From assembly GCF_000745125.1 (NCBI RefSeq), contig NZ_JQNF01000003.1, positions 186,001 through 250,000 of the forward strand: 64,000 nucleotides of DNA, in the 5' to 3' direction. Of the stretch, positions 45,190 to 47,545 are shown in pieces. The stretch is from Carnobacterium jeotgali MS3. Lineage in GTDB: Bacteria; Bacillota; Bacilli; Lactobacillales; Carnobacteriaceae. How positions within the stretch are numbered: the first letter of the stretch is position 1; every line of letters begins with the position of its first letter. The position numbers and the translations under genes were made by a program. A model generated the notes under the pieces. That model searched no databases and had not been told where the DNA came from. It saw nothing but the letters and a program-made list of their open reading frames with translations.

Positions 45190-45289
45190 GAACGTACCTC
45201 CTAATTACTTTTATTTAATTGAGTATACGTCACATATAGGTAAATGTAAAAGCATCTTACCCGTCATTTTCCAAGCTTAAAATCATTCT

Positions 45290-45620
45290 TTCAAGTAACG
45301 TAACGAGCCTTAGTTCGAGTAACTCAAAGTTACTTTTCATTTGAGTAGACGCAACAAGGCTCTGTTCAGGTAACTCAACATTACTTTTCATTTGAGTAGA
45401 CGCAACAAGGCTCTGTTCAGGTAACTCAACATTACTTTTCATTTGAGTAGACGCAACAAAGCTCTGTTCAGGTAACTCAAAGTTACTTTTCATTTGAGTA
45501 GACGCAACGAGCCTCTGTTCGGGTAACTCAACATTACTTTTCATTTGAGTAGACGCAACGAGCCTTAGTTCAGGTAACTCAAAGTTACTTTTCATTTGAG
45601 TAGACGCAACAAGGCTCTCC
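45290..45620 (-). repeat. 51-bp tandem repeat (minisatellite), possibly translated
   Basis: About six full 51-bp units plus a partial one. Each reads on the minus strand as a 17-residue unit of the form LVASTQMKSN[VF]ELPEQS with V/F and QS/QR/LR changes. Only this frame is open. A 128-codon ORF (45257-45643) spans it but would start at TTG with a poorly spaced SD (AAAGGAG 13 nt away), so translation is doubtful. Units differ at only a few bases, suggesting recent expansion. There are no spacers, so it is not CRISPR. It lies between the VOC gene and the ComK-like gene. Confidence 0.85.
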
Positions 45621-45901
45621 TGATAAGACAACCTTTTTACCAAATAGGAATGAGTGCTCCTTTGAATTCATTTTCAATAAATTGCTTGATTTTATCTTAT
45701 TGAAAAAATATTAATAAAGATTATATATTACCTCTAGCACACTATCTTTATTCATAAATCGTTGGAATTAAAGGAAACAAATTAAAAAACAATTATAATT
45801 TAATTACAAACACAAATTAATGGATGCCGCGTTAAATGATAACGTTTACAATGTTGATAGATTAACTTTTTACAATGAAGATTGGGAATGGAGACTGAAA
45901 A

Positions 45902-46813
45902 ATGAGAGAAAATTTTGAACGTAACCAGAATCTAGAATACTATGTTAATTGGAAAAATAATTATTATCAATTTAATGAAAAAAATTTCATTAAACAATCT
46001 GTTTCACATTTAAATGAAGTTTGTGAATCCCCTTATTATTATGAGACAACTTTCATTCGAAAAAGGCTTGACCCGATGTCAATTACAGATGATACTCTTT
46101 CTTCATTGCTTGCAGCTAGTTTCGAACAAAAGCATATTTTACTGGATTCAAAAACATTTTACATCAAAGATATTCGTGATGTTACAGATACACCTTTTAA
46201 TACTATCGTTTTTCAATTAGATGCACCGTCATTAAAAACAGAAGAAAGTTCACGCACCATCATGAATCGTTATTTCGCTCAACGGCCATTAGATTACAAC
46301 ACTATTCAATATTTTGGTAAGTGTCTAGGGTTTTATCATCGTTGTCCATTTGTTTCTGGGGATGAGATATTTGTACCTGAAAAAGGATCTGCCAATGATT
46401 CTACCAGTTGGTATGGAATTCATCACATCCTTTATGCTAATGAAGATAAAAAAACAAAATGTATGCACGTGCATTTTCGTGGACACCATGAATTACAACT
46501 AAATATATCCGCTCGTAGCTTTAACGAACAAGTCGATCGTTCAGCTATTCTTTTCGTTTATCAGCAATTTATTATTGATGAATTGGTTGGCCTTGGACAC
46601 TATGTACCAGAACCTTCCGTTATGACTGAACTAAATATCGTTCAACAACATCTAAAAAAATTTACTTTTACTATGGTCCTACACCCATTAGAAAAAATTC
46701 TATCTTACATTTCACATTATCGCGTGCAAGAAACGCTTGAAAAGGTCCTTGGAGAAGCGAATCCCTATATCGGAGAAATCAGAGATAACTTCAATTCAAA
46801 CTTTAAAAAATGA
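45902..46813 (+). CDS. ComK-like competence transcription factor, extended form
   Basis: 303 residues. The middle (about 130-235) follows the ComK pattern: an aromatic-Phe-Gly region (IQYFGKCLGFYHR), CPFVSGDEIFVPEKGS matching ComK's PIMV...IFLFPT, a Trp-x-x-x-HH turn (SWYGIHHI), an HFRGHHELQLNIS strand and SFNEQVDRSAI matching SFENQVYRTAW. ComK drives DNA-uptake genes in Bacillus by binding AT-rich K-boxes. This protein is about 110 residues longer than B. subtilis ComK, with extra N- and C-terminal segments. SD GGAG lies 8 nt before the ATG. It is convergent with a sigma factor gene. Assignment is by eye and needs a profile search. Confidence 0.6.
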   Translation: MRENFERNQNLEYYVNWKNNYYQFNEKNFIKQSVSHLNEVCESPYYYETTFIRKRLDPMSITDDTLSSLLAASFEQKHILLDSKTFYIKDIRDVTDTPFNTIVFQLDAPSLKTEESSRTIMNRYFAQRPLDYNTIQYFGKCLGFYHRCPFVSGDEIFVPEKGSANDSTSWYGIHHILYANEDKKTKCMHVHFRGHHELQLNISARSFNEQVDRSAILFVYQQFIIDELVGLGHYVPEPSVMTELNIVQQHLKKFTFTMVLHPLEKILSYISHYRVQETLEKVLGEANPYIGEIRDNFNSNFKK

Positions 46814-46838
46814 TTCTTGCCCTTTCAAATGGTTGGAT

Positions 46839-46883
46839 AACAAAAAAGATTAAGCTAGTTGATTTAGCTTAATCTTTTTTGTT
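46839..46883. terminator. Bidirectional terminator between ComK-like and sigma factor genes
   Basis: A perfect 19-bp inverted repeat (46839-46857 and 46865-46883, 7-nt loop) with A/T-runs at both ends, between convergent genes. Confidence 0.9.
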
Positions 46884-46907
46884 GGCTTCTTTTATTGGAT
46901 GAAATCT

Positions 46908-47453
46908 TTAATCTTTCAAAATAAGTAGGAAATGATTTAACTTTTCAGCAACTCTTTTTTTCCATTGGTAAACCGTTTTACGACTTACCCCTTGTTTTGT
47001 AGCAATTTCCGTAACCGATAACTGCTTAACAACCGCATCTAATAAATAAGCTTGTTCATTTTTAGTTAAAAGAGGCAACATTTCTTTTAATAAATCCATG
47101 TCTTGATAAGATTGTTCAAATGACAACTGCGTATCAGGCTGCTCCGTTGCCACCTCATCTGGCCAGGGCATTTCATAGTTCCATTTGCGCTGCTGTTTTC
47201 GTAATAAATCAAGCATATGCCACCGAACTTTTTTATAGGCGTAACCCGTAAATTGATAGAGAAAGGCCTCTTGCTCCAAATCTTCAGGAAATGTTTCGTA
47301 AGCTTCTACCAACTTTAACAATCCTTGTTGCACAAAATCATCGTAATCTGGATGTGATCGGTATACACCCAATTTTTTCAATGCTCCATGGACGATTCCT
47401 GCATGCTGATCAAAAAATGCTCGTTCTTTTTCTTCGCTCAATAATCTTATCAT
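46908..47453 (-). CDS. Sigma-70 family factor (SigH/ComX-like)
   Basis: 181 residues. Region 2 spans about 25-95 (DYDDFVQQGLLKLVEAY and FTGYAYKKVRWHMLDLLRKQQR), and region 4 about 125-175 with the helix-turn-helix SVTEIATKQGVSRKTVYQWKKR. There is no region 1 or 3, as in SigH/ComX alternative sigma factors that control late competence genes in Lactobacillales and staphylococci. SD AAGGA lies 11 nt before the ATG. It faces the ComK-like gene across a terminator. An ECF-like sigma is the alternative, but no anti-sigma gene is adjacent. Confidence 0.78.
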   Translation of the reverse strand: MIRLLSEEKERAFFDQHAGIVHGALKKLGVYRSHPDYDDFVQQGLLKLVEAYETFPEDLEQEAFLYQFTGYAYKKVRWHMLDLLRKQQRKWNYEMPWPDEVATEQPDTQLSFEQSYQDMDLLKEMLPLLTKNEQAYLLDAVVKQLSVTEIATKQGVSRKTVYQWKKRVAEKLNHFLLILKD

Positions 47454-47545
47454 CTGTTTTCAAATCCTTCGTTTTGTTGTTACAAGGCCTTGTACTCTTA
47501 CAGCATACCCACTTATCGCACACCCGACAACAAACCAAACAATGC

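Follow-up and report, generated by a model that had tools for sequence, protein, structure and literature searches.

Why does a gene for a ComK-like regulator adjoin one for a competence-type sigma factor in a lactic-type bacterium, and do the two act together? The two are usually treated as separate controls of DNA uptake, each belonging to different bacteria. Streptococcus and Lactococcus aside, little is understood, to our knowledge, of how lactic bacteria control competence. We analyzed the window, a 64,000-nucleotide stretch (G000:C3:186001-250000) of a 2.5 Mb genome, alongside the 18 genomes of its family and 395 sampled genomes of Lactobacillales. From sequence comparison, we give about even credence to a reading in which ComK and the sigma factor form one competence switch, kept as a module in many Lactobacillales, with the sigma factor reading the late com genes and ComK being the likeliest occupant of a palindrome at the sigma gene. 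The conserved ComK-sigma pair, with its single operator, would then be a concrete candidate for a master switch of natural transformation in many genera.

The ComK-family gene (45902-46813, plus strand) begins with ATG and encodes 303 residues, with sequence flanking the matched ComK part on both sides. Pfam's ComK profile, PF06338, matches this protein above its cut-off (1.1e-07; 32.1 bits against 22.3), so that a search proposed in the first-pass annotation bears out its assignment of a 303-residue ComK-like protein, coordinates and strand included. The match is partial, joining profile positions 84-144 of 152 to protein residues 157-218; the protein's best relatives align to profile positions 6-148. 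Within the family the cut-off is passed in 15 of 18 genomes, and the 19 homologues, paralogues included, are spread over 15 of the 18 and have stop-free open frames of 287-339 aa. An AlphaFold2 model, built from two sequences, reached a mean pLDDT of 34.8, too low for any reading of the fold. Searches of the PDB by sequence and by sequence profile found no solved ComK structure, and no homologue of the window's ComK was found on plasmids at E<=1e-3. Bacillus subtilis ComK belongs to the same protein family (PF06338) and acts with sigma-A through K-boxes, whereas the protein studied here is longer and K-boxes are not evident. The same genome carries a second, more distant ComK at C3:174008-174946, 57 kb away and outside the window (L001, L053), with a cre-like site of its own; comparable second copies occur in G009 and G011, where the only strong sigma match lies tens of kilobases off. 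Adjoining comK in the window is an open reading frame of 128 aa (45257-45643) that contains 5.9 copies of a 51-bp unit (45319-45618).

The sigma factor gene (46908-47453, minus strand) also begins with ATG and encodes 181 residues comprising regions 2 and 4. Sigma70_r2 matches above its Pfam cut-off and two region-4 models match, each below its own; the earlier description as a two-domain sigma factor of this length, strand and position therefore holds, with region 4 its weaker part. Among NCBIfam models the best is TIGR02937 (sigma70-ECF; 3e-20, residues 10-174), and none of the 25 best of its 52 matches is a SigH model. We take the Bacillus-type sigH neighbourhood to be the secE-nusG side, and none of the immediate neighbours here (a 458-aa open reading frame and amidase, RibD_C and 3-dmu-9_3-mt proteins) is of that type. 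A single-sequence search recovered the sigma factor in 14 of 18 family genomes; in such searches G001, G002 and G016 yielded neither ComK nor sigma and G003 yielded ComK only, and these four genomes give weak profile matches for sigma (E 4e-7 to 8e-5). A gene that by eye looks like recX recurs near the competence sigma gene at 30 loci in families f4, f8 and f9 (for example, L189).

What this sigma factor would read is suggested by the promoters of coiA, comEA, comGA and dprA. In many of the 18 genomes, comEA and comGA are preceded by a T-rich stretch and a sequence that reads T(A/G)C(G/A)NATA; the two resemble the T-rich stretch and TACGAATA-like -10 element that precede late com genes controlled by Streptococcus ComX/SigX. 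At a score of at least 7.5 and at -75 to -25, cin-box-like elements precede coiA in 15 of 18 genomes, comEA in 10, comGA in 6 and dprA in 6, a total at fixed score and position of 37 of 72 com promoters against 1 of 48 control genes. The controls, here as for the palindrome below, were all drawn from the window, hence from one genome, and some of them lie inside operons. When judged against shuffles (P<=0.05), the counts are 15, 13, 9 and 8 of 18, respectively, against 4 of 48 window genes; these are given as computed, and some cin-like sites were missed through a wrong start codon. At coiA of G001 and G002 the site is TTTTTACGAATAGT, which we take to be the streptococcal cin-box, and cin-like boxes are present too in G001, G002 and G016, genomes with only a weak sigma match. 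Judging by these elements, which the first-pass annotation had suggested looking for, the sigma factor looks functionally ComX/SigH-like, as had been proposed, and it would transcribe the late com genes directly through them. Such a sigma factor, together with the ComK profile match, makes the dual switch itself likely.

K-boxes (AAAAN5TTTT), the other element that had been suggested for a search before com genes, are not clearly enriched there: across the four genes in 18 genomes we counted 13 of 72, against about 7.8 expected from dinucleotide shuffles, with the highest count at coiA (6 of 18 against 2.4 expected). An enrichment apparent under mononucleotide shuffles was no longer clear under the dinucleotide expectation. 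This result bears on the function of ComK, not on its descent. In genus g1 (for example, L092 and L102), comEA carries a conserved ATTAAAG-N7-TTAAA shortly before the cin-like box, noticed by eye and a possible activator site; inspection by eye did not reveal it before coiA or comGA.

The two genes converge in the window. Between their stop codons, a scan for terminator-like sites found a single near-symmetric stem of 20 pairs (46838-46884) that could end transcription from both sides, in agreement with the first description of convergence across one terminator; the region holds four such sites, against 1.1 in shuffles. Of the 14 family genomes where the sigma factor turns up in a single-sequence search, 13 have ComK and sigma side by side, so their adjacency is not chance. 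The family includes Desemzia sp. RIT 804 (L020), and in G017 the two genes lie on one contig about 43 kb apart. Orientation varies by group, being convergent in g1 (6 of 6) and g4 (2 of 2) and divergent in g3 (5 of 5). In the Desemzia genome G015 (L052, L035), a second ComK is followed by a decayed, convergent sigma remnant, and the pair was thus probably duplicated there as a unit.

The pairing extends well beyond the family. A sigma profile matches 313 of the 395 sampled Lactobacillales genomes, and a diverse ComK profile of 44 members matches 208 of the 395, in 60 of 80 genera, at E<=1e-3; a narrower, family-based ComK profile matches 103 of 395, two of these being weak matches in f3. Counted from the list of matches, 34 of the 208 genomes fall in f7, which we infer is probably Listeriaceae, and none in f3, by the same naming probably Streptococcus. 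ComK has long been known in Listeriaceae, and we know of no ComK in streptococci. Taken singly, 29 of the 44 profile members match PF06338 (E<=0.01), so the wider ComK set is not profile drift alone; 15 of the 44 are without a Pfam match, and some of the 208 could be drift. With ComK in this many genomes, and commonly near the sigma gene, the first-pass view that a dual switch would be unusual in a lactic-type bacterium finds no support.

Of the 149 loci gathered, 40 were chosen for ComK by the family-based profile and 39 for its absence there, and one further batch with ComK status known. The counts on 146 leaders leave out L191 and L196, which lack a sigma open reading frame, L218, which lacks a start, and L258, which is a dummy stretch of 100 bases. 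In alignment A2, rows L053 and L054 start slightly upstream of the start codons. The loci were picked by hand rather than at random, going down the listed matches from the strongest and guided in part by ComK status. At 99 of the 146, the fetched stretch that carries sigma also contains a ComK open reading frame (E<1e-4), whatever its orientation (f8, 23 of 24; f9, 30 of 46; f4, 20 of 43; f6, 11 of 16; f1, 13 of 14; f2, 2 of 3). Two of the 99 pairs are several kilobases apart, about 7 kb in G201 and about 10 kb in G066. The genes are divergent in f8 (23 loci) and f4 (20) and in tandem at 16 of 30 loci in f9; together with the divergent pairs of g3, these arrangements show that convergence, as first described, is not a defining feature of the pair. 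When neighbouring genes were clustered by BLAST, no cluster other than sigma and ComK extended beyond three families; that of ComK reached five, over 87 loci.

The comK gene itself carries a candidate regulatory site. A cre-like box of presumed CcpA type, TGATAACGTTTACA (45837-45850, plus strand), lies before it and is perfect to the consensus used. In the family, TGWNANCGNTNNCA, which we take to be the cre consensus, occurs perfectly in 14 of 19 comK upstream regions, paralogues included, against 0.1% of shuffles, and within one mismatch in 18 of 19, against 4.4%. Through this site comK would be placed under carbon control, probably by CcpA. A likeness is found in Lactococcus lactis comX, which is controlled by CcpA, CodY and CovR and where cre boxes give carbon control over a competence master regulator and CcpA is reported to repress comX directly (PMC11244767); in that species control falls on comX, whereas the cre-like site studied here precedes comK.

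The sigma gene has a different upstream region. On the minus strand, we recognized by eye a sigma-A-type -35 element, TTGTCG (47525-47530), and a -10 element, TATGCT (47502-47507), which ends exactly 7 nt before a perfect palindrome, TACAAGGCCTTGTA (47481-47494), our proposed operator, at about +1; a ribosome binding site, AAGGA (47465-47469), can be read further downstream. This layout is conserved in 14 of 14 family genomes, as a TTG-type -35 element, 17-18 nt, a TANNCT -10 element, exactly 7 nt and TACAAGGCCTTGTA. The exact palindrome occurs once per genome in the 14 sigma-bearing genomes, always at the sigma promoter, and is absent from the other four; allowing one mismatch adds three sites (G009, G011 and G012), all away from the sigma gene. 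A promoter scan of the region returned 9 matches, against 9.1 expected in shuffles, and the putative sigma promoter rests on its conservation in the 14 relatives. On this reading, the sigma gene would be driven from a housekeeping-type promoter, and the palindrome, which has no spacer and sits at about +1, would serve as a DNA operator for a dimeric protein.

In other families, the symmetry of this element is better kept than its letters. Family f6 and part of f4 share the TACAAGGCCTTGTA core, and elsewhere the palindrome is mostly kept with its letters changed: with centres between -60 and -20, the 105 palindromes of 10 bp or more comprise 52 distinct strings; there are 44 distinct central 12-mers, in which each of the five inner positions shows every one of the four base pairs. 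A palindrome of at least 10 bp lies within 110 nt in 95 of 106 leaders, against 12.9% of shuffles. In the 75 nt before the sigma gene, one is present at 108 of 146 loci, whereas the controls have it in 4 of 48 (genes of the window) and 5 of 72 (com genes); some of those counted are probably chance or another element (the AT-rich ones and a second palindrome in f6). Where symmetry was required at pairs 3-6 alone, 81 of 107 candidate centres proved symmetric at both inner pairs as well; in shuffles, 53 of 664 candidate centres did, with the caveat that related genomes are not independent in this count. Selection on an RNA hairpin would leave the loop bases, which cannot pair, free to vary. That the symmetry extends to the centre therefore favours a DNA site bound by a dimeric protein over an RNA hairpin. 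A sigma palindrome with drifting letters and kept symmetry suggests a control switch that has not been described, and an operator family of this kind would be a natural experiment in protein-DNA co-evolution. Leaders of f6 (for example, L136, L138, L141-L143) contain a second palindrome, (A)GAAGATCTTC(T), between the first and the start codon. At loci of genus g33 in f4 (for example, L181, L189, L195), the sigma leader contains a longer interrupted repeat, GCATGCACAGGG...CCCTGCATC, which is perhaps a hairpin, and has no palindrome of at least 10 bp near the start.

Which protein would occupy this operator? Palindromes of at least 12 bp are present in 77 of 125 genomes with ComK and 3 of 21 without (P=7e-5), and those of at least 10 bp in 99 of 125 and 9 of 21 (P=0.001), an association that is confounded by phylogeny; within f4 it amounts to 14 of 29 against 3 of 14 (P=0.11). 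The sampled genomes without ComK in f8 (2 of 2) and f9 (4 of 4) have a palindrome, G127 among them with a weak local ComK match, and in genus g33 of f4 eight loci with ComK show no palindrome of at least 10 bp in 75 nt. In partial Mantel tests on 72 loci, palindrome difference followed ComK distance once sigma distance was accounted for (partial r 0.159, P=0.002) more than it followed sigma distance with ComK accounted for (partial r 0.085, P=0.09), which leans to ComK over sigma with a small effect. The position is more what one would expect of a repressor than of an activator, since a dimer bound there would have its centre at about +7. Because the association within f4 is not significant, palindromes occur without ComK in f8 and f9, and g33 has ComK without one, we name ComK as the binder tentatively, somewhat short of an even chance. 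As the likeliest candidate, the neighbouring ComK would by binding there set whether sigma is made. B. subtilis ComK binds a different motif. It is possible, if short of probable, that a ComK-type protein binds a single symmetric operator at the sigma start site across much of the order, and that operator and protein have co-diverged, the inner positions being rewritten several times with symmetry kept. If true, this would give ComK a DNA-binding mode and role unlike those of the AT-box activator known from Bacillus.

The palindrome might instead work as RNA, with a 5' hairpin or switch through which the sigma mRNA's translation is controlled, a role for which Staphylococcus aureus provides a precedent: a 13-base inverted repeat in the 5' UTR of sigH is reported to act as RNA that sequesters the ribosome binding site, limiting SigH production after transcription (PMC3486894). 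We consider this improbable here, where the palindrome has zero spacer and lies at the promoter, with symmetry reaching central bases that no hairpin loop could pair. Pairing of the right arm with the start-codon region was tested against mononucleotide shuffles in 84 of 106 leaders, those with a palindrome of at least 10 bp in 70 nt. At P<=0.05 it occurs in 0 of 14 leaders of the window's family, which rejects a helix hiding the ribosome binding site there, and in 1 of 15 in f6 and 0 of 12 in f8, yet it exceeds chance in part of f9 (16 of 33) and f4 (6 of 9). Since the right arm and the bases after it can pair with the start region in these last two families, a second RNA layer may exist in parts of both. 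Rfam gave no match at the sigma leaders of 13 loci; its three matches there all lie away from the leader and below gathering. An RNA-RNA duplex between two transcripts may be a further alternative.

Two other explanations retain a DNA element or the gene pair and part company over what they do. ComK and sigma might co-activate late com promoters, as in S. aureus, while an unrelated, unlinked regulator binds the palindrome; the 9 of 21 genomes that have palindromes of at least 10 bp without a ComK match are consistent with this, as is the g1 comEA element ahead of its cin-like box. We regard it as less likely than the preferred reading, for that element was not seen by eye before coiA or comGA, K-boxes are not clearly enriched, and no third gene accompanies the pair as a conserved neighbour across more than three families. 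Far less probable is that an ordinary ECF-type sigma factor happens to adjoin a ComK relic, as the leading place of TIGR02937 and the want of a SigH model in the top 25 of 52 NCBIfam matches might imply; against it stand the adjacency kept in 13 of 14 family genomes, the cin-box-like promoters of the com genes, and ComK frames that remain free of stops over 287-339 aa.

The preferred reading, ComK and sigma as one switch, has relatives among known systems, and S. aureus SigH with ComK1 already represents its kind. The genes for sigH and comK are presumably not adjacent in that species. Most of its com genes are reported to require SigH and ComK1 together (PMC10182052), and on this analogy ComK may also act beside sigma at the com promoters studied here. 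ComK2 of S. aureus is reported to be able to repress (PMC12491500); the likeness covers joint government of com genes by a sigma factor and ComK, and an inverted repeat before sigH (PMC10182052, PMC12491500, PMC3486894). In Lactobacillus sakei, sigH likewise encodes a sigma factor that activates com genes in a lactic bacterium, and the 2012 paper describing it states that Lactobacillales have no ComK homologue (PMC3364868), whereas here ComK adjoins sigma. Among the titles and abstract openings that we covered, none reports ComK in Lactobacillales other than Listeria, and adjacency, breadth and drifting operator are the parts that we did not find in print there. Streptococcus ComX is driven by ComE or ComR.

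In the strain studied here, the two parts of comGA lie on either side of a prophage-like insert, about 40 kb long (G000:C5, about 49.6-89.2 kb; L337-L339), that carries genes for a large serine-type integrase (phrog_95), an anti-repressor, Erf and a helicase loader. The DNA-uptake machinery of the strain therefore looks interrupted, in a manner reminiscent of the Listeria comK prophage.
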